The notes under the pieces: model-generated
Databases searched by the model: none
Seen by the model: only the letters and a program-made list of their open reading frames with translations
What the model was told of the DNA's origin: nothing
Assembly (NCBI RefSeq): GCF_004212215.1
Contig: NZ_QVFV01000003.1
Coordinates: forward strand, 310,001 to 374,000
From: Leptolyngbya iicbica LK
GTDB lineage: Bacteria; Cyanobacteriota; Cyanobacteriia; Phormidesmidales; Phormidesmidaceae
Length of the DNA: 64,000 nucleotides
Direction: 5' to 3'
Made by a program: the position numbers and the translations under genes
In this document: one piece after another, positions 1,630 through 61,773 of the stretch
Numbering within the stretch: position 1 is the first letter of the stretch
Layout of the letters: every line of letters starts with the position of its first letter

Positions 1630-3309
1630 TCACGCATCCAGTTCCAGCGCAAACCCGTGACGCAACTTGGTCGTCACCCGATCGCACGCCCGGGCCGTGA
1701 TCGCCATTTCCGTCAGCGTCGGACTCTGCCACCCGGAGGACGTCCAGCACGCCCCATCCGTCACCAACACATTGGGGGCTTCCCAGCATTGGTTGTCGGC
1801 ATTCACCACCGAGTTGTGGGGCGAGGTGCCCATGCGGGCGCCGCCGACTTCATGGATGTAGTACCCCGGCGGGCCAGCGGGGGTGAGGGTTTTCTCCACT
1901 CGTCGCATTAAGGGGGCCACAGCGGGCATGTGGTACAGGTCTGTGAGCGCGTAGCACTGTCCCCCTGCGGCCTTAACCGTCGCTTCGATTTCTTGGCGCA
2001 TGTGGGCCACCATTTGGTGCTCATTCTCCGACCAGGCACAATCAATGTGCGCGGCAGGAATGCCCCAAGCATCCACCGTGTCGGGGCTGAGGCTGACGTG
2101 ATTTTCGGCATGGGGCAGCACTTCGCCATGGCCGATCAGAAAGCCGATCTCCCCTTCCCCCACCTTTTGCAACACCGACGGCACCCCAATGCGCTGAATG
2201 CCACCCCACAGCCCGTAACCGCGCAAAAACGATTCCGCTTGCGGGTTAGCCAAATTGCAAAAGCGCGGAATAAAGAAGCTCTCACTGCCCGATAGCGGAA
2301 ACGATTCCGATGGCGCCGGCATCCCCGGCAGCCAGAAAAACTGCATGGCAGAAATATGATCCATCAGGTAACGCCCCAGCAAATCCGCCTCGTTCGCTAA
2401 ACCATGGGGCTGATGCTCAGCGGTGGAATGCAGCAAAATTCGCACCGTCTCGATCGCCGATGCACAGAGCATCACCACCCGTCCCCGCACTTCATAGGTC
2501 TCATGGGTCAGACGATCAATAAAGGCAACCCCGCTGGCGTGATGACTGTCTGCATCAAAGGTCAGGTGACTGACGATCGCATTGGGGCGCAGCTCCACAT
2601 TGCCCGTGGCCAGGGCCGTTTTTAGGGATGAGCCAGGACTCGCCGCCCGCGACCAAGGCTGCTCGGGCGTCGGTCGATGCAGCGCAAAGCCCCGGGAGTG
2701 GATCAGTTGCCGATCCGTCCAGCGATCGCCAATCAACTGCTGCAATTCCCTTTCAGCCGGGGTCAACGGGGCGGGGGGCAGATAATCCCCATCGGGCAAC
2801 TGCGCCAAGCGATCGCACTCCCCCTGCACCTGAAAGAACCGTTCCAAGCGAGTGTAATAGGGCGCCAGGTCGGCATGAGCGATCGGCCAGTCTTCCCCAA
2901 AGCCATCCCGCTGCGCCGCCTTAAATTCATAGTCCGATAGCCGCAGGGTAATGCCGCCCCAGGTGTGGCTGCGTCCCCCCACCTGCCGACCGCGAATCCA
3001 GTAAAACGGTTTGTGCTCCGGCGTCGTGTAGGGGTGCTCCCGCTCGTCTACGAAAAAGTCGGGATTCGCCTTCCAATAGCCGGGGTGAGTGGCTTGATGG
3101 GTCTGTTTTCCCGTGGCAATGTTGAAGGCGCGGCGAGCCGTGTCGCGCACTGGATGGTGGGGATCACGCTTCGGGTCAATGTCCCGCCCCGCTTCTAAGA
3201 CCAGTACCCGCAACCCGCGCTCACCGAGTTCTTTCGCGGCGACCCCGCCGTTGGCCCCTGATCCCACCACGATCGCATCATACGGTTCTGCCGTTTTGTG
3301 GATATGCAT
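1630..3309 (-). CDS. GMC family FAD-dependent oxidoreductase
   Basis: A 559-residue flavoprotein of the glucose-methanol-choline family, which oxidises alcohols or sugars using FAD. The N-terminus carries the Rossmann dinucleotide motif (DAIVVGSGANGGVAAKELG, then the E of LVLEAG that binds the ADP ribose). The C-terminus has the GMC catalytic region, with HEVGGARMG supplying one His and a WQSPTLTEMAITARA segment where many relatives have NPTLT. No Tat or Sec signal is present, so it looks cytoplasmic. The ATG is preceded by AGGAG at good spacing. It points toward the WD40 gene. Gluconate-dehydrogenase-type enzymes usually have a small partner subunit and a cytochrome; neither is adjacent. Substrate unknown. 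Confidence 0.88.
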   Translation of the reverse strand: MHIHKTAEPYDAIVVGSGANGGVAAKELGERGLRVLVLEAGRDIDPKRDPHHPVRDTARRAFNIATGKQTHQATHPGYWKANPDFFVDEREHPYTTPEHKPFYWIRGRQVGGRSHTWGGITLRLSDYEFKAAQRDGFGEDWPIAHADLAPYYTRLERFFQVQGECDRLAQLPDGDYLPPAPLTPAERELQQLIGDRWTDRQLIHSRGFALHRPTPEQPWSRAASPGSSLKTALATGNVELRPNAIVSHLTFDADSHHASGVAFIDRLTHETYEVRGRVVMLCASAIETVRILLHSTAEHQPHGLANEADLLGRYLMDHISAMQFFWLPGMPAPSESFPLSGSESFFIPRFCNLANPQAESFLRGYGLWGGIQRIGVPSVLQKVGEGEIGFLIGHGEVLPHAENHVSLSPDTVDAWGIPAAHIDCAWSENEHQMVAHMRQEIEATVKAAGGQCYALTDLYHMPAVAPLMRRVEKTLTPAGPPGYYIHEVGGARMGTSPHNSVVNADNQCWEAPNVLVTDGACWTSSGWQSPTLTEMAITARACDRVTTKLRHGFALELDA

Positions 3310-53584: not shown

Positions 53585-54112
53585 TCACTCTAGTGAGGTG
53601 CAGTAGCAGCAATTTGTAAACCAGTTTTTAATGTCTGTCAAAGAAACTTCCTTGAATGCCTTTTCTAAGGCTTTTGCTAAGTCGGGATACGTTCTTGCTT
53701 CAAGTGACCGTAGTATCGACTTGACCTTTGACCAGAAATTCTCAATCGGCGAGAACTCAGGTGAGTAAGGTGGCAAATAAATGAGTGAGGCTCCCGCCTG
53801 ATGAATCATATCCTCAATTTCTTTACCTAAATGAATAGAGCAGTTATCCATGATTACCCAAGCTCCTGGCCATAACTTTGGCACTAGCCGCTGGGAGATG
53901 AAAGCCTCAAAGGTCAAGCCATCAAAGGCCCCCATGATACTTGCACTAGCTAATAATCCAGTTAAGCTCAGGGCTCCGACCACGGAAACATTCTGACCTC
54001 TTTTCTGAGGTCGTTTGCCATGAGCACGTTGACCTTTAGGAGCGCGCGCCCGGAGTCGAGTCAAAGCCAGATTCACTCCAGATTCATCAATAAAGATGAG
54101 GTTTTTAGCCAA
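53585..54112 (-). CDS. IS630 transposase, ORF B (DDE catalytic part)
   Basis: 175 codons from the nominal start, but expressed by fusion to ORF A. The catalytic triad is visible: Asp in NLIFIDESGVN, Asp in WVIMDNCSIH, Glu in SPIENFWSKVKS. The frame continues upstream of its first start codon without a stop (KKTFHADEKESERVQLKR), joining ORF A at the A8 tract. Intact. Confidence 0.9.
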   Translation of the reverse strand: MAKNLIFIDESGVNLALTRLRARAPKGQRAHGKRPQKRGQNVSVVGALSLTGLLASASIMGAFDGLTFEAFISQRLVPKLWPGAWVIMDNCSIHLGKEIEDMIHQAGASLIYLPPYSPEFSPIENFWSKVKSILRSLEARTYPDLAKALEKAFKEVSLTDIKNWFTNCCYCTSLE

Positions 54113-54147
54113 AATCCCTCGTACTAACTGCCAAAACTCTACCCGCT

Positions 54148-54540
54148 TTAGCTGGACGCGCTCACTTTCCTTTTCGTCGGCGTGGAACGTCTTTTTTTTA
54201 CGGTCAGGTCAAGCTTTTTAAGAGCTCGATTAATGGTTGAAGTACTGACCCAGAGGTCAGTTTTTGCCGCCAGTTGTACTCGTAGTTCTGCCAGGGTCGC
54301 GTCATTTTGCGCTGCCACTAATTGTTGCAGCACATCGAGATGTACACTCGTGAGCTTTGGGGGTGTCTGCTGCGTTCGGATTTTGGGGGCGAAGGAATCG
54401 GTTTCTCGATATTGCTTCAATAACTTCTGAACAAAGCTTGGGGCAACCCCAAATCGTCTTGCTAGCTTTCGTTGCGAAATCGATTCGTCTTCATGTGCCT
54501 TGATGATTTTTCGACGGAACTCGATAGAGTAAGCTTTCAT
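54148..54540 (-). CDS. IS630 transposase, ORF A (DNA-binding part)
   Basis: 130 codons with a helix-turn-helix of the IS630/Tc1 type (FRRKIIKAHEDESISQRKLA, RRFGVAPSFVQKLL) and a second helical region (ISTSTINRALKKLDL-like). Near its end lies a run of eight A's on the coding strand (T8 at 54192-54199). Slipping back one base there joins VKK to KTFHADEKES and the catalytic ORF; without slippage translation ends at KRKVSASS. Confidence 0.9.
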   Translation of the reverse strand: MKAYSIEFRRKIIKAHEDESISQRKLARRFGVAPSFVQKLLKQYRETDSFAPKIRTQQTPPKLTSVHLDVLQQLVAAQNDATLAELRVQLAAKTDLWVSTSTINRALKKLDLTVKKRRSTPTKRKVSASS

Positions 54541-54603
54541 CCCTGTCTCTTAGCAAATTCCAAAACATACTAAGTGTATCTCACGAGACTGGAAAAGGCT
54601 GTA

Positions 54604-55021
54604 TAGTAGCCGGACATCAAACTCTATGCGCAATCCAATCAAACAAAGCGTTCTATTTGATTGATCGTTCTAGCGGCTTATTTTTCTCTACTGGAAGTAT
54701 CCACAGATGATGACAACTGGCATCGCTGATGCAGTGGGGCAGCGATCATAAAACTTGTGAATTTGAGTAATGAACTTTTGCCATCTTTACGGAAAACCCC
54801 GCACAATTACGGAAGACAGGGATGTATATTTTCGCAGCACTGCCGTATTTTTGCGCAGATTCTCGCACCACAGGGATCGTTTACAGTGACGGATTAAGTC
54901 ATTTAAGGCTGGGATGGGTTGAATTTTAATTAAATCTGCGAAGCTCTCCGACTACTGCATCTACTTATAATTTGCGTAAAGGCAGTGTATTGATTGTCTT
55001 TTTGAACTTGCAGGCCAGTTC
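54604..55021. other. Upstream region of the GGDEF gene
   Basis: 418 bases to the right of the IS630 copy. AT-rich, with a perfect -10 hexamer near its end (listed separately). No gene. Confidence 0.5.
54966..54971 (+). promoter_or_regulatory. -10 element upstream of the GGDEF gene
   Basis: A perfect TATAAT, 50 bases before the ATG. No convincing -35 lies 16-18 bases upstream, so an activator may be needed. Confidence 0.4.
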
Positions 55022-58000
55022 ATGCTGCTTTCTTTCTCTGTAGAAACTCCGGTTGAGTTCGGTGAAGTTTTCGACAGGTTAGCCGATATCTTTTCTCAGT
55101 TTCATCAGGCGACTCAACTTGAAGACCTGTTAGCCTGCGGAGTACAACACACCCGCTACTTATTTGGCTGCGATCGCGCGCTGATTTATCAGTTCACCGA
55201 CGGTGGCGATGGGGCCGTTACCGCCGAATCTGTGGGCGAAGGCTGGTCGCCGACGTTGGGACAACTGATTTACGACCCCTGTTTTGAAAATGTTTGGGGC
55301 GAAAAATTTCAGCGCGGAGAAATTACCGCGATCGCCGATATTGAACAGAGCGATATCGAGCCTTGCTACCGCGAGTTAATGATGCGGTTGCAGGTTAAGG
55401 CCAATCTCATCAGTCCGATTTTGCTGCCGTCACCAACTCCAGAGGGCACCGCCCAGTTGCCCGTGTTATGGGGACTGCTGATTATTCATCAATGCGGCGA
55501 ACCGCGAGAGTGGGCCCCGATTCATCGGCAGGTGAGCCAACACTTGGCCGCGCAGCTGGGCATTGCGATTCGCCACCTGCAGACCGCTCAAACCCTGGTA
55601 GCCAGCCGCCGAGCAGTGGAGCCATGGCAGCAGGCTGCGGCACTAGCTGGGTGTGTGATGTGGCAATGGCAGCTAGACACTGACATCATTCAATATTCGC
55701 CGCAGTGGCGATCGCTGCTGGGCTATCAACCCCCAGATATTGAGACCGATTTCAATGCGTTGCTGGCGTTGATCCACGCGGATGATCGCGAACGGGTACG
55801 GGCCGCCATGCGTCAACATTTGGAGCACCGCACCGCCGCCTATCGAGTTGAGCATCGGCTGCGCTGTCGCAATGGGCAGTGGAAATGGGTCTACAGCCAG
55901 GGGCAAGTGACAGCTTACCGAGCCAATGACACGCCCCTCAAGTTTGTCGGCATGATGGTGGATATCAGCGATCGCAAAGCGCAGGAATTAGCGCTGCAAC
56001 AGCAGACTCAGCGAGAGCGCGCCCTCTACGAAGTGATTGATGTCATTCGGCGATCGCTCGATTTTCAACATATCTTTGCCGTGGCGGCGACACAAGTGGC
56101 CCAATGCTTGCAGTCCCGAGTGCGGATTACGCAATACATCACCAACGAAACGGTGGCCTGCTGGCGAGCCGTAGCGGTAGATGGCGGCCCCCATGACTGG
56201 ACAGCAGAACAAGAAGCGCAAATTTGGGTAGATGTGCCTGACCAGGATAATGCGATCGCCGCCCAACTCAAGCAGCTCCAAGTAGTGCAGATCAGCGATA
56301 CCGCCGACATCAGTCTCACCGATACCGTCAATCAGCCCTATGCCCAATCATTTCCTGGGCACTGGCTGATCGTGCCCATTGCGATTGAGACGGAGGTCTG
56401 GGGTGCCATTGCAATGACTCGCCCCAGCCTAGTTGACTGGATCCCCGCAGAAGTGGAGCTAACCCAACGGATTGCCACGCAGTTAGCCAATGCGATTCAT
56501 CACGCCCAGTTACATCGGCAAACGCAATTGGCTTCAGAGCGTGATGCCTTAGTGCTCCAAAGTATCGACGAAGGCATTTGGGAATGGCGCGCCAACACGG
56601 GCATTGACCAGATCTCCGATCGCTATTGGGAGATTTTAGGCTACGACCCACCCGCAACACCGCCAGCCTTGAGAGACGAACTCGCCCGAGTGCATCCTGA
56701 CGATCGCCAGTGGTTGGTAGCTTCCATCGAGACCCACCTTTATACGCAGCAACCTTTTCAGCAAGAATTTCGGCTACAGCATCGCGACGGTCATTACATC
56801 TGGGTGCGGGTGCGAGGGCGCGCCATTTGGGATGAGGACGGCAATCCCACCAGAATGCTCGGCACTGTGGAAGATATTAGCGATCGCAAAACCCTCGACG
56901 TCAGGCTCCGTCAACAGGAAAAAGAGTTTCGAGGGCTGGTGGAGAATAATCCCGACGGCATCATGCGGGTCAACCGGCAGTTTCAGATTTTGTATGCCAA
57001 CCCGATGATCGCCTCCAGAATGGGGGTACCCCAAGCAGATTTGCTCGGTCAAAGACTCAGCGATTTAGAGCTGTCTCGATTGGTGAGAAACCGCTGGCAA
57101 ACGGCTATTTCACGAGTGTTTGAAACGCAGCAAGAACAGCTACTTGAAACCCAAGAAATGCTAGCGGGTCAAGAGCAGACTTTTTACTCCCGCATTGTGC
57201 CAGAGGTGAATGAGAGCAACCACATTCAATCGGTTTTGATCATTTCTCGCAATGTGACCAACTTGCGGACAATACAAATTGCGCTGCAACAGCGCATTCA
57301 GCAAGAGCACAAGCTGCGCCTAATGATGCAGCACTTTCGCGCCACCTTGAATCTGGATGAAATTTTATCGACGGCGGTGGTTGAGCTGCAAACGGCCTTT
57401 TATGCCGATCGCACTTTGGTGGTTCAACTCTTTGCCGATCAGTCACGACAGGTCATTGCTGAAACCCGCGATCACCAATATCCCAGCCTGTTGCACACCC
57501 GGTGGGAAAATGCCCCGATCACCTCTCACTGCCTTGCCCTTTATCGAGCGGGGCAAGCCCAGATTGTGCCCGATATCGCGCAGGCCGACTGCGACCCGGA
57601 GGCAGTAATCGCCGCTTGGCAGCGGGCAGGCGTCAAGTCGGCCATGGTGGCCCCGTTGACCCAATCGTTGGGAGCCGAAGCTAACGTCTGGGGCTTTTTG
57701 ATCACCCAGGCCTGCGCCACCCAACGCGATTGGCATGCGGATGAATTGCACCTGCTGCAACAGGTGGCCGAGCAGCTGGCGATCGCCATCCAACAGTCAG
57801 AACTGTATCAACAGCTGCAAGCCGCGAACCAAGAGTTGGCCAGCATCTCGACCACCGATGCCTTGACCCAGATTGCCAATCGTCGCCATTTTGATAACAC
57901 CCTCGAAGATGAATGGCTGCGGGGGCAGCGTCACCAGCGCGAGATCAGCCTGATCCTCTGTGACATTGATTGGTTTAAAGACTTTAACGACACCTATGGT

Positions 58001-58372
58001 CATCCGGCGGGCGACACTTGCATTGCGGCGGTGGCTCAGGCTTTGCAGCAATGTGTCAACCGCTCGACAGACTGCCTGGCGCGCTATGGGGGCGAAGAGT
58101 TTGCCCTCATTTTGCCCCACACCAATCAGGCAGGGGCGATCGCCATTGTGGAACAAATTCGCGAGGCGATCGCAGCGCTTGAGATTCATCACCCGGCCCC
58201 TCAATCCAGTGGTCGACTAACCCTCAGTTACGGCATTGCGACGGTGATGCCGGTACCAAGCACGACGCCCCAATCGCTGATTGCCTTAGCTGACCGTGCC
58301 CTCTACCAAGCCAAGCAAGCTGGCCGCGATCGCTACGTTATTGCCGATGTCAGTGCTCCGCCTGAAGAGTAA
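55022..58372 (+). CDS. GAF-PAS-GAF-PAS-PAS-GAF-GGDEF diguanylate cyclase, candidate cyanobacteriochrome
   Basis: A 1116-residue soluble sensor. Domains by approximate residues: GAF1 18-195, PAS1 205-315, GAF2 335-495, PAS2 513-620, PAS3 636-747, GAF3 770-927, GGDEF 943-1107. The GGDEF is catalytically complete (GGEEF at 1023-1027, CDIDWFKDFND metal site) and has the inhibitory site RSTD at 1014-1017, exactly five residues ahead, so it should make c-di-GMP with feedback control. GAF1 has DPCF (C87) and a second Cys at 115 (EPCYREL), the 28-residue spacing of DXCF-type cyanobacteriochromes; the usual His after the bilin Cys is Tyr. GAF2 and GAF3 lack such cysteines. No EAL domain. Light sensing is inferred. 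Confidence 0.9.
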   Translation: MLLSFSVETPVEFGEVFDRLADIFSQFHQATQLEDLLACGVQHTRYLFGCDRALIYQFTDGGDGAVTAESVGEGWSPTLGQLIYDPCFENVWGEKFQRGEITAIADIEQSDIEPCYRELMMRLQVKANLISPILLPSPTPEGTAQLPVLWGLLIIHQCGEPREWAPIHRQVSQHLAAQLGIAIRHLQTAQTLVASRRAVEPWQQAAALAGCVMWQWQLDTDIIQYSPQWRSLLGYQPPDIETDFNALLALIHADDRERVRAAMRQHLEHRTAAYRVEHRLRCRNGQWKWVYSQGQVTAYRANDTPLKFVGMMVDISDRKAQELALQQQTQRERALYEVIDVIRRSLDFQHIFAVAATQVAQCLQSRVRITQYITNETVACWRAVAVDGGPHDWTAEQEAQIWVDVPDQDNAIAAQLKQLQVVQISDTADISLTDTVNQPYAQSFPGHWLIVPIAIETEVWGAIAMTRPSLVDWIPAEVELTQRIATQLANAIHHAQLHRQTQLASERDALVLQSIDEGIWEWRANTGIDQISDRYWEILGYDPPATPPALRDELARVHPDDRQWLVASIETHLYTQQPFQQEFRLQHRDGHYIWVRVRGRAIWDEDGNPTRMLGTVEDISDRKTLDVRLRQQEKEFRGLVENNPDGIMRVNRQFQILYANPMIASRMGVPQADLLGQRLSDLELSRLVRNRWQTAISRVFETQQEQLLETQEMLAGQEQTFYSRIVPEVNESNHIQSVLIISRNVTNLRTIQIALQQRIQQEHKLRLMMQHFRATLNLDEILSTAVVELQTAFYADRTLVVQLFADQSRQVIAETRDHQYPSLLHTRWENAPITSHCLALYRAGQAQIVPDIAQADCDPEAVIAAWQRAGVKSAMVAPLTQSLGAEANVWGFLITQACATQRDWHADELHLLQQVAEQLAIAIQQSELYQQLQAANQELASISTTDALTQIANRRHFDNTLEDEWLRGQRHQREISLILCDIDWFKDFNDTYGHPAGDTCIAAVAQALQQCVNRSTDCLARYGGEEFALILPHTNQAGAIAIVEQIREAIAALEIHHPAPQSSGRLTLSYGIATVMPVPSTTPQSLIALADRALYQAKQAGRDRYVIADVSAPPEE

Positions 58373-58480
58373 CGAGCACTGGCACGCGCCGGATAGGCGT
58401 TAACTTGCCAATAGCCACTCCCATCCCCGAGAGTGGGCAGTGCCCAACCCGCACAGATCCGTAGCTGGTTTGGGGACGTT

Positions 58481-58686
58481 ATAGCGTTGCGCAGATAGCT
58501 CCATTCATTGATTTGACAGAAAAACGAGGGGCTTAGGTTAGGAAGCAGGACTTTTCAAATCCAACCCAAGTTTTGTTGAGCAAGCATCTTGCTTGCCCCA
58601 GGACAGCCGAGACGGCTGTCCACACTTCGATCAATGCCCATACTTTAAACTTTTGGGCTCTCGGCACCTGACTGCGGATTGCTATA
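58481..58686. repeat. MITE-like element, copy B
   Basis: About 206 bases related to copy A (41182-41371). The ends ATAGC....CGCAG and CTGCG....GCTAT are inverted repeats, with TA at the borders. The inner hairpin GGACAGCCG-AGA-CGGCTGTCC is identical in both copies, while a second hairpin (GCAAGCATCTTGCTTGC) differs in sequence from the corresponding one in A but keeps its pairing. Confidence 0.78.
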
Positions 58687-58708
58687 TTGCAGCGCACAGT
58701 CCGAAGAC

Positions 58709-58736
58709 AAAAAGCCCCCTGCTGGTTGCAGAGGGC
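58709..58736 (-). terminator. Rho-independent terminator of the DUF302 gene
   Basis: Read on the minus strand: GCCC-T-CTGC, loop, GCAG-G-GGGC, then TTTTTG. Located 50 bases after the DUF302 stop. Confidence 0.8.
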
Positions 58737-58786
58737 GGTGCTCTCAGAAAATTCTTAATCAGCAGTACTCGTTGACTGAATCGCTA

Positions 58787-59206
58787 TCAGACCTTGGCAA
58801 GGCGGCGCTCTACTTGGAGGGCCGGTAAGCGATCGATGACGCGCTGCATCATGGTGCTGGCATTCAGCGCGACCTCTTTGGCACGGGGGCTGTGCACCAT
58901 GAGAAACATCATCAGCGGATCCACTGCCGACACCTCGACGCGGCCATCCGGGCGCTCTTGCACGACGACGTTGCAGGGAAATAACACACCAGCCTTATCG
59001 TCCTCTTCCAAAATCTGAAAAGCGGTTTGCGGATGACAAGCTCCCAAAATGGTGTAGCGCCGAAAATCGATATCCAGCTTTTTCTTAAATGCCGCCTGGG
59101 CATTAATTTCAGTCAACACGCCCATGCCTTCTGCCTTTAGGGCATCGGTCACTAGCGCGATCGCCTCATCAAACGAGGCATTCACAATTTTGCTGAAGTG
59201 ATACAT
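58787..59206 (-). CDS. DUF302 domain protein
   Basis: A 139-residue cytoplasmic protein of the DUF302 family: YHFSKIVNASFDEAIALVTDAL, FGVLTEINAQAAFKKKLD-type strand, YTILGACHPQTAFQILEED and GVLFPCNVVVQE. The start at MYHFSKI is preceded by GAGGAAG; an in-frame codon eleven residues upstream is less likely. Cys 61 (GACHP) and the Cys of FPCNV are conserved in many members. Function unproven. It has a well-formed promoter with an adjacent AT-rich palindrome and its own terminator, so it is an isolated, regulated gene. Confidence 0.9.
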   Translation of the reverse strand: MYHFSKIVNASFDEAIALVTDALKAEGMGVLTEINAQAAFKKKLDIDFRRYTILGACHPQTAFQILEEDDKAGVLFPCNVVVQERPDGRVEVSAVDPLMMFLMVHSPRAKEVALNASTMMQRVIDRLPALQVERRLAKV

Positions 59207-59247
59207 AGCTTCCTCATGGCGCCCCAACAAGCGGAGCAATTCAAAGT

Positions 59248-59276
59248 TCTATATTTACAATACTACAAATTATCAA
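59248..59276 (-). promoter_or_regulatory. Promoter of the DUF302 gene
   Basis: On the minus strand TTGATA (59276-59271), a seventeen-base spacer, then TATAGA (59253-59248). Expected transcript start about 35 bases before the ATG. Confidence 0.6.
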
Positions 59277-59282
59277 TTGAAT

Positions 59283-59294
59283 AACTATATAGTT
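59283..59294. promoter_or_regulatory. Possible operator upstream of DUF302 promoter
   Basis: The perfect twelve-base palindrome AACTATATAGTT sits six bases upstream of the -35, a position suited to an activator. Regulator unknown. Confidence 0.35.
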
Positions 59295-59439
59295 GAATAT
59301 TATTGCATGAGTGAACGGGTGACTGGTGCGGATGTAGGCCGCAACTTTGCCGTCAGTGTCAGCCAGGCGTCCCATGCTCAGGCCGCAAAGACTCAAGCGT
59401 CCACTGTCGTCCAAAAGGATGCGATGGCTCGCAGCTTCC

Positions 59440-60435
59440 TCACCAGGGATCTTCCAATAGCGTGTCGGGCAGACGCAGGGTGGCACCGGTCGTAGTTTGC
59501 ATAATTTGCGTAACGGCACCGCTCAGGGTCTGCGTCACCAGGGCATATCCCTGAGCACTGAGGTGGATGTGGTCACGATATAAAGCGTCTGGGTTAGCGG
59601 TGGCTTGGAAATCGGCCAGAAAGTCAATGTAGGGAATCTGCTCGAGCTCGGCGAATTGGGTCACCCGTTGGCGGGCAACGATTTCGTAGTCACGGGAGCC
59701 CGGTGGCTGAACTTCGCGCAACAGCGGCGTCATCGCCAAAATCAGCCGACCATCGGCTTGGTCGGTCAGCTGCTTGAGTTGTCGCACCGCTTCGAGATTT
59801 ACTCCCACGCGATCGCCCCCTTCTTGCCGCACCGCCTCCAGTTCAGGAATGGCGGGCGACTTGAGAAACCGTCCAGCCACTTCGACCAGCGCCAAGGGCG
59901 GATACCGTTGGGGATAAGCGCGATCGCGACCCACCTGCACCGATGTCGGCGCAGTGGCAAACAAGTCGTCAGTGTTGAGCAATAGCACCACCACTTGCGA
60001 GTCAAAGGTGCCAAATTTCAGCGCGTAGGCCAACTCATTGCGCGGTCCCCAAGAATTGGCCGAAGCATTCAACACTTCGACCTGGGTGTAAGGCCCGGAG
60101 AGCGTAGCGGTGAGCTGCTGTTGCAACCGCTGCGACAAGATTTTTGACTGGTCAGTCCACCAGCCACCATTGGCAATGGAATCGCCCAAGAGCAATATCC
60201 GTAAGGTGTCTGGTGTAGGCTGGGGGGCGATCACGTCTCCCCGCATGGAATATTGGTTGATCTCAAAAACGTTGCCAAAGCGCTTGGTGCGCTGGTTGGG
60301 GGCGAGTCGATACCCGGTCTGAGTATCGGCAACGTACAGCGGGGGCTTGCCAAACCCCAAAAAGACTCGCAACGCTAGCTCGGCAGCGCCCAATATCAGG
60401 ATGAGCAGCCCAGCAATAATCAACGTGAGTTTCAC
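59440..60435 (-). CDS. SGNH/GDSL-type hydrolase, membrane-anchored
   Basis: A 331-residue protein with an uncleaved-looking N-terminal hydrophobic helix (residues 3-28, TLIIAGLLILILGAAELALR) and an SGNH esterase domain. Block I is LLLGDSIANGG (nucleophile S86); Asn of LNASANSWG and the DHIHLSAQG block V (Asp and His) complete the set. The start codon is GTG. Likely periplasmic, acting on acyl groups of polysaccharides or lipids; such anchored SGNH proteins are often linked to exopolysaccharide O-acetylation. Divergent from the BASS carrier with 160 bases between. Confidence 0.87.
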   Translation of the reverse strand: MKLTLIIAGLLILILGAAELALRVFLGFGKPPLYVADTQTGYRLAPNQRTKRFGNVFEINQYSMRGDVIAPQPTPDTLRILLLGDSIANGGWWTDQSKILSQRLQQQLTATLSGPYTQVEVLNASANSWGPRNELAYALKFGTFDSQVVVLLLNTDDLFATAPTSVQVGRDRAYPQRYPPLALVEVAGRFLKSPAIPELEAVRQEGGDRVGVNLEAVRQLKQLTDQADGRLILAMTPLLREVQPPGSRDYEIVARQRVTQFAELEQIPYIDFLADFQATANPDALYRDHIHLSAQGYALVTQTLSGAVTQIMQTTTGATLRLPDTLLEDPW

Positions 60436-60596
60436 CGATAAGTCTCCCAGCGATGCCTTAACAGTTTAGAGGATGCCCCATCACGGCCTTCGATGCGAAT
60501 GCAACAATCTATGAAGGTTACTGTGACTGTCCACCTCAAACGCTTTGAATGAACTAGCAAGGGTTAGCCTGATAGGCGTCTGGGTTACGCAAGCAC

Positions 60597-61472
60597 ATGA
60601 AGAAATCACTGTTTTTATTTAGCGCGATCGCGGTGGGCATTTTGTTTCCGCAAGGTCACCATTACGCCTATCTGATCCGCTACTTGATCATGCTGATTCT
60701 CTTCTGCTCATTGCTGGATCTGAAGATCGATGTGAAATCAGCCCTGAATCCCCGCTTGGGCACGATCATCGCCATGATGATGGCGATCGCGGGCATTACC
60801 GCCTGGGTCAGCAACTGGGTCAGCCCCGAACTGGCGCTCGCCGCCTTTATGATTGCCATGGCCCCAACCGCAGCGGCAGCGCCGGTCATGACTCGATTTT
60901 TAGACGGGCGAGTGGACTATGTGATGTCTTCGGTGATTGTCACCAATAGTTTCTCAGCGATCGCCTTGCCGTTGGTCTTGCCCTTGTTGAATCCGAATGG
61001 TCATACCAGTATTGACCTCACGGGGTTGGCGAATACTCTGACCGTGATTTTGCTGCCGTTGGGCCTCACCCAACTGATGCAAAATTATGCTCCCGCCCTA
61101 GTCAAAGCTTTAGAGCCTGTGCGGAGTACCGGCTTTTACTTTTGGATGGCAGCGATTTACCTCTCGACAGCCAAAGCAACATACTTCATTGAAGTTGAGT
61201 CGACCTATCCCTGGATCGTTATTTTAGAAATTGCATCGGTCTCGCTGCTGCTCTGTACTTTTAACTTTGGCCTGGGCCGCTGGCTCGGGGGCTACGACTG
61301 GGGCCAAGAGATGGGCCAATCCCTCGGACAAAAAAATACCCTGTTTAGCATTTGGGTCTGCCTGACATTTTTGACGCCCGCGATCGCCCTCGGCCCCATG
61401 TTTTACGTGGTATTTCAGAATCTCTACAATTCCTATTTGCTCGCTCGCAAACCGCAGTTGAAATCGGGCTAG
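60597..61472 (+). CDS. Divergent BASS-family sodium-dependent transporter
   Basis: A 291-residue membrane protein with nine to ten spans. APTAAAAPVMTRFLDGRVDYVMSSVIVTN takes the place of the GGPTSN region of classical BASS proteins, and the second half has GQKNTLFSIWVCLTF at the other crossing. Substrate unknown. The next small gene starts five bases after the stop, so the two are co-transcribed. Confidence 0.82.
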   Translation: MKKSLFLFSAIAVGILFPQGHHYAYLIRYLIMLILFCSLLDLKIDVKSALNPRLGTIIAMMMAIAGITAWVSNWVSPELALAAFMIAMAPTAAAAPVMTRFLDGRVDYVMSSVIVTNSFSAIALPLVLPLLNPNGHTSIDLTGLANTLTVILLPLGLTQLMQNYAPALVKALEPVRSTGFYFWMAAIYLSTAKATYFIEVESTYPWIVILEIASVSLLLCTFNFGLGRWLGGYDWGQEMGQSLGQKNTLFSIWVCLTFLTPAIALGPMFYVVFQNLYNSYLLARKPQLKSG

Positions 61473-61476
61473 AGTC

Positions 61477-61773
61477 ATGTATTCCAGCGTTTATTACCTG
61501 CTGCGCTCTAAACAAGATGGTCGCCACCTCGCCGCGCGTCCCGAGGGGCCAGAGAGCGATCGCACCTATTTGCTCATCTTCTCAGCAGATCATGAAGCCC
61601 TGTCGTATTTGAGCGCCCATGCGCCCGAGGTGCGCGATCGCTTTGCGGTGGAATCCGTTCCGGCGTATCAACTGAAAGGTATGCTGAGCCGCTGGGGCTT
61701 TGCGGGTATCGGCTTAGTTAGCGATCCCAGCGGCCCCAAGGTCGAGTTTATGCAGCGCGATCGCCTCTTTTAA
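61477..61773 (+). CDS. Small conserved-looking hypothetical protein
   Basis: 98 residues, soluble, starting MYSSVYYLLRSKQDGRHLAA. It contains the pattern YLLIFSADHEALSYLSAHAPEVRDRF and ends WGFAGIGLVSDPSGPKVEFMQRDRLF, with the regular charge and helix pattern of a real protein. I do not recognise a named family. Four bases after the BASS gene, so probably its operon partner. Convergent with GH57, nine bases between stops. Confidence 0.75.
   Translation: MYSSVYYLLRSKQDGRHLAARPEGPESDRTYLLIFSADHEALSYLSAHAPEVRDRFAVESVPAYQLKGMLSRWGFAGIGLVSDPSGPKVEFMQRDRLF

Follow-up and report, generated by a model that had tools for sequence, protein, structure and literature searches.

The question raised by this locus is whether a long sensory protein of Leptolyngbya iicbica LK makes cyclic di-GMP (c-di-GMP) under the control of light and what significance attaches to the tyrosine that stands beside its predicted bilin-binding cysteine. 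The gene lies within the window, by which we mean the whole stretch of 64,000 nucleotides that was analyzed. An earlier note on this DNA had proposed that the gene encodes a light-sensing, DXCF-type diguanylate cyclase, and sequence, phylogeny, predicted fold, and the bilin genes of the host support that candidate assignment well. We consider it quite probable that the product is a DXCF-type cyanobacteriochrome diguanylate cyclase which works like SesA of Thermosynechococcus elongatus. The gene and its parts, in window positions, are as follows.

55022..58372, + strand: whole gene, GAF1-PAS-GAF2-PAS-PAS-GAF3-GGDEF, 1116 amino acids from ATG, with a full-length orthologue in genome G004
55118..55570, + strand: GAF1, predicted bilin-binding DXCF cyanobacteriochrome domain (Pfam GAF, PDB matches, tree, AlphaFold and Foldseek)
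55274..55285, + strand: D85-P86-C87-F88, the DXCF motif, with C87 as second cysteine, equivalent to C494 of TePixJ and Cys-499 of SesA (motif reading, alignment)
55364..55369, + strand: C115-Y116, the predicted bilin (canonical) cysteine and a tyrosine in place of H523 of TePixJ (motif reading, alignment)
55688..55954, + strand: PAS domain 1 (PAS_3; Pfam)
56063..56497, + strand: GAF2, divergent, without the cysteine pair (Pfam, tree, alignment)
56546..56878, + strand: PAS domain 2 (Pfam)
56942..57268, + strand: PAS domain 3 (PAS_4; Pfam)
57350..57790, + strand: GAF3, alignable with cyanobacteriochrome GAF domains, without either bilin cysteine (Pfam, tree, alignment)
57851..58333, + strand: GGDEF diguanylate cyclase domain (Pfam, E 3.6e-52)
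58061..58072, + strand: R1014-S-T-D1017, the RxxD product-inhibition (I) site (motif reading)
58088..58102, + strand: GGEEF active-site signature, residues 1023-1027 (motif reading)

The Pfam matches comprise three GAF stretches, PAS domains, and GGDEF; we read them as three GAF domains, three PAS domains, and the GGDEF domain. The six sensory domains and the intact GGEEF and RxxD motifs described in the earlier note are all present, as are the features that it had reported for GAF1 in this open reading frame (ORF), namely, DPCF with C87, C115, a spacing of 28, and Tyr116. Five residues lie between RSTD (1014) and GGEEF (1023), and the GGDEF domain, in which both motifs are kept, is a putative diguanylate cyclase.

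In the alignment, C115 falls on C522 of TePixJ and on Cys-527 of SesA, and it is 28 residues from C87. A spacing of exactly 28 was found in 187 of the 189 distinct two-cysteine rows of the collected GAF set, which was drawn from matches near GAF1 and TePixJ with near copies included and is thus a biased set and not a census. Because of this spacing and the match of GAF1 to TePixJ (3vv4, E 3.9e-26), the cysteine arrangement is more than chance; the PDB matches also included a dual-sensor kinase (6oap, E 4.2e-27). For an AlphaFold model of GAF1 made with 17 alignment rows (mean pLDDT 86.7, pTM 0.84), the top PDB match in Foldseek was the TePixJ structure 4fof, which represents the blue-absorbing form (E 1.6e-16, TM by target 0.84). 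GAF1 shares with the TePixJ GAF domain (3vv4, 4fof, 4glq, 6p58) the fold, the two cysteines 28 apart, and two pocket residues, Asp (D492/D85) and Asn (N535/N128), whereas H523 and Q526 of TePixJ correspond to Tyr116 and Leu119 and TePixJ itself is a methyl-accepting chemotaxis protein.

Phylogeny was assessed with a quick tree built from 107 GAF rows, in which the His/Tyr column was excluded from the alignment; 51 of its 104 inner branches are open, and its deeper relations are unsettled. GAF1 grouped with 25 other rows (26 in all; SH-aLRT 90, not starred), and 25 of the 26 contain both cysteines. A position among non-bilin GAF domains, which the earlier note had suggested checking for, was therefore not found. 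The residue after the bilin cysteine in those 25 rows is Tyr in 18, His in 6, and another residue in 1. GAF1 and its orthologue form the smallest starred set (100), and a further one, of four rows (97), adds loci L033 and L037. GAF2 forms a very long branch, and GAF3 falls in a set of eight rows, seven of which lack the second cysteine; both domains were considered as further bilin sites and rejected, as the cysteine pair is in neither. The identification of GAF1 as a two-cysteine DXCF cyanobacteriochrome GAF domain is well supported by these comparisons of sequence, tree position, and predicted fold.

The host genome contains two heme oxygenases and one bilin reductase match (NCBIfam PcyA, 364.8 bits against a cut-off of 206), and phycocyanobilin should therefore be available. 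A survey of other host GAF domains covered 20 (L125 and 19 others) of the 67 Pfam matches listed. Six of the 20 have a [DE]XCF second cysteine together with a bilin cysteine, two of them with Cys-Tyr (L125 and L127) and four with Cys-His (L128, L129, L133, and L136), and a seventh, L134, has QYCF and Cys-Leu.

The closest functional comparison is offered by T. elongatus, whose genome was recognized because it encodes the TePixJ GAF domain with 100% identity. SesA, SesB, and SesC are cyanobacteriochromes of this organism that make or degrade c-di-GMP (PMC5871770). Locus L213 encodes CBS repeats, PAS, GAF, and GGDEF, without EAL, and has GGEEF with RAGD five residues before it. Full-length Tlr0924 is photoconvertible, and Cys-527 and Cys-499 link it to phycocyanobilin and phycoviolobilin (PMC4223177, PMC4067208). 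When the second cysteine of L213 is set to the published 499, its start is a GTG codon and its bilin cysteine becomes 527 as published, a fit that involves one free choice; the architecture and the genome are in agreement with SesA, and we identify L213 as SesA/Tlr0924. Locus L177 (GAF, GSDEF, and EAL, without RxxD; Cys-Tyr) fits SesB/Tlr1999, which is described as a teal-light-activated phosphodiesterase with diguanylate cyclase residues missing and which does not appear in the list of RXXD proteins given there (PMC5871770). Locus L214 (PAS domains, GAF, SGDEF with RQGD, and EAL) fits SesC and has Cys-His, as does TePixJ. The SesB-like protein has GSDEF in T. elongatus (L177) versus GGDEF in three related genomes (L176, L179, and L180), and the loss of the cyclase signature may be recent or species-bound.

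SesA, a blue-light-activated diguanylate cyclase and the best known of such enzymes, resembles the target in having a DXCF GAF domain with two cysteines 28 apart, a Tyr after the bilin cysteine, a nearly identical CYREL(L/M)xRLQ stretch (DPCF...DCYRELLTRLQ in SesA and DPCF...PCYRELMMRLQ in GAF1), and a C-terminal GGEEF with an RxxD (RAGD in SesA) five residues before it. However, SesA consists of CBS repeats, one PAS, and one GAF domain directly before GGDEF, whereas the bilin GAF domain of the target is N-terminal with five domains in between, and the two GAF domains lie in different parts of the tree. The target would work like SesA but, given the differences in arrangement and tree position, is not filed as its orthologue. 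SesB also has a DXCF GAF domain with Cys-Tyr and a spacing of 28, but with its degenerate GSDEF and its EAL, and without RxxD, it is a phosphodiesterase and not a cyclase (PMC5871770).

The earlier note had regarded Tyr116 as unusual, and this was mistaken, since Tyr is likewise found in SesA/Tlr0924, the very protein that it had used for comparison, and in SesB. Counting distinct rows only and excluding reference rows, the DXCF rows of the collected set comprised 115 with Cys-His, 52 with Cys-Tyr, and 1 with Cys-Leu, and in two the bilin cysteine was missing or cut, so that Cys-Tyr accounts for 52 of the 168 that have a bilin cysteine. GAF1 lacks the His at this place, which is frequent but not defining for the class; membership does not turn on it, because SesA, SesB, and those 52 rows have Tyr. 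Parsimony on the 107-row tree gave 23 changes between Cys-His and Cys-Tyr, and for the Cys-Tyr two-cysteine label versus all other rows, the starred branches by themselves require at least 5 changes. A single clade was rejected both for the 38 two-cysteine Cys-Tyr rows (versus 46 with Cys-His; p-AU 3.6e-4) and for all 40 Cys-Tyr rows, which include the engineered miRFP670nano with its artificial Tyr (p-AU 3.5e-5), although these values are not clean, because the tree is of a quick kind and was inspected before the groups were defined. Two readings of Cys-Tyr, as a singular oddity and as the signature of a single clade, were thus rejected, since it occurs in SesA and SesB and the monophyly of its rows is not upheld. 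With a single origin rejected, the sequences indicate that His and Tyr have been exchanged repeatedly after the bilin cysteine of two-cysteine cyanobacteriochrome GAF domains. A natural side-by-side comparison is found in L069 (open frame from base 3286), where two adjoining DXCF GAF domains (residues 235-378 and 411-562) have one Cys-His and one Cys-Tyr.

Tyr116 was also considered as a predictor of color and rejected, as the blue/green pair of states is shared by SesA, which has Tyr, and TePixJ, which has His, and SesB is blue/teal with Tyr. Tlr0924 has both phycocyanobilin and phycoviolobilin attached, about 80% of it phycoviolobilin, and undergoes a blue/green cycle (PMC4223177); Tyr is therefore compatible with a two-cysteine cycle and does not fix its color. 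Of the earlier proposal of a c-di-GMP synthase responding to blue/green or violet light, the DXCF cyclase is well supported, but the color does not follow from Tyr116, from which violet, blue/green, and blue/teal cannot be distinguished for GAF1. A blue/green or blue/teal response is probable. In TePixJ crystals, H523 seems to move and so make room for the photoproduct (PMC6955287). A natural Tyr following the bilin cysteine of DXCF domains was not seen to be discussed in the literature excerpts, in which the main DXCF papers of 2008-2012 figure only as references. Tyr116 is one of two residues common at its place and is not predicted to block binding or photoconversion. The His at this place in the blue/orange receptor Oscil6304_2705 is reportedly needed for photoproduct protonation, and if that role is correct, Tyr could alter protonation.

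We hypothesize that phycocyanobilin would be attached by C115 through ring A, with its possible conversion to phycoviolobilin by GAF1. A second bond, from C87 to C10, would be present in the dark state, giving a blue-absorbing form; blue light would isomerize the 15/16 bond and release C87, giving a green- or teal-absorbing form. This change may be relayed via the PAS and GAF domains to set c-di-GMP output, which product inhibition through the RxxD site would limit.

The full-length orthologue in G004 is 83% identical to the target and identical to the Halomicronema sp. CCY15110 protein (L065) at 1124 of 1124 residues, and the two were counted as a single species. DPCF, Cys-Tyr, RSTD, and GGEEF are all retained in this orthologue, whose identity to the target is 80.2% in GAF1, 75.6% in PAS1, 83.9% in GAF2, 85.6% in PAS2, 83.5% in PAS3, 84.6% in GAF3, and 89.8% in GGDEF. 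Eighteen wider relatives, picked from the best GAF1 matches, were read at length. All 18 have the cysteine pair near the N terminus with a spacing of 28 (16 with Cys-Tyr and 2 with Cys-His), although their ORFs were chosen by the cysteine-pair pattern and the presence of the pair is therefore by choice; one, L226, has APCL in place of DXCF. The 26-row group resembles the target in its LIYDPCF-type motif, in the N-terminal place of the domain in the 18 relatives, and in being mostly Cys-Tyr. It differs in output, as a motif search of the 18 found 12 histidine kinase H-boxes, 3 GGEEF, and 3 with neither, which puts the target in the GGEEF minority.

Several observations weigh against a SesA-like function for the target. 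GAF1 may be gated or overridden by the other five sensory domains of the chain, and an orthologue was found in one species only. L033 and L037, the nearest nonorthologous rows of the tree, have Cys-His, so Tyr is not general among the closest kin. The Gln at position 526 of TePixJ corresponds to Leu119, although Leu stands at the same place in SesA, and the 26-row group holds no protein known to us as characterized.

In the likeliest of three alternatives, GAF1 is photoactive with bilin but light plays a minor part, and a relay of PAS, GAF2, and GAF3 senses redox, gas, or a small molecule and sets cyclase activity. Besides GAF2 and GAF3, which lack the cysteine pair, this relay contains three PAS domains. 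Moreover, both genomes encode a paralogous, longer cyclase with GGEEF (L031 in the target genome, G000, C2:955693-960579, open frame of 1659 amino acids; L032 in G004, C352, 1644 amino acids), whose first GAF domain can be aligned with GAF1 but lacks both DPCF and the bilin cysteine. It is likely from these alignments that this paralogue is a blind twin of the target, which kept the bilin site that the twin lost, and its persistence in both genomes indicates that this type of protein can survive without one. However, the cysteine pair, spacing, and motif of the target itself are kept in the orthologue despite about 20% divergence in GAF1, and we regard a minor role of light as unlikely.

A second possibility is that GAF1 is a decayed cyanobacteriochrome domain without bilin or that C87 and C115 form a thiol redox pair. 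GAF domains that align but lack the site occur often in the collected set, where 47 of 267 distinct rows have neither cysteine (10 of the 47 are short pieces), but the motif and spacing of GAF1 are intact and kept in the orthologue, and a characterized photoreceptor, SesA, shares its Cys-Tyr site; we consider this very unlikely. In miRFP670nano, the engineered H87Y substitution, equivalent in position to Tyr116, stacks on biliverdin (PMC6336887). A similar shift of GAF1 by Tyr116, toward binding of biliverdin and absorption in the far red, is hardly credible, as miRFP670nano carries 18 substitutions (PMC6336887) and has Tyr rather than Cys at the DXCF place, SesA with the same Tyr binds phycocyanobilin and phycoviolobilin with a blue/green cycle, and PcyA is present in the host.

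The SesA-like cyclase lies among the following genes.

Upstream of the cyclase: Uma2-type gene
53585-54540, - strand: transposase in two ORFs, with a DDE_3 domain in one and no Pfam match in the other
Downstream of the cyclase: DUF302 gene, GDSL lipase, and SBF-family gene

The transposase ORF pair lies about 480 bases upstream of the cyclase gene and is IS630-like in our reading; a search for its ends gave only two 12-nucleotide inverted pairs, neither of which spans the element. No c-di-GMP partner was apparent among the six neighbor genes annotated. The orientation of the cyclase relative to the DUF302-GDSL-SBF block is opposite in the target and in Halomicronema CCY15110 (window 54747-61772 versus L065 226-7266), and one segment has therefore been inverted between these two Halomicronema-like genomes. 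Promoter-like sites over 54500-58850 numbered 3, versus a mean of 2.7 in shuffles, and no regulatory reading is claimed.

The target is an ordinary addition to the known light-switched cyclases, of modest interest and mainly to specialists. What it contributes is a probable c-di-GMP synthase under light control, from a Halomicronema-like cyanobacterium, whose photosensor and output are widely separated along the chain; the notion that Cys-Tyr signals an odd chromophore site is corrected as well. The repeated exchange of His and Tyr, together with the cysteine-less paralogue, offers a simple natural comparison for the role of that position and of the bilin. A bolder view, which we consider rather unlikely, is that His/Tyr is a recurrent evolutionary switch and that the N-terminal "LIYDPCF" group is an uncharacterized DXCF lineage in which Tyr alters photoproduct protonation or dark reversion and not color. 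If this were true, the target and its cysteine-less paralogue would constitute a pair supplied by nature, one cyclase sensing light and the other blind to it.

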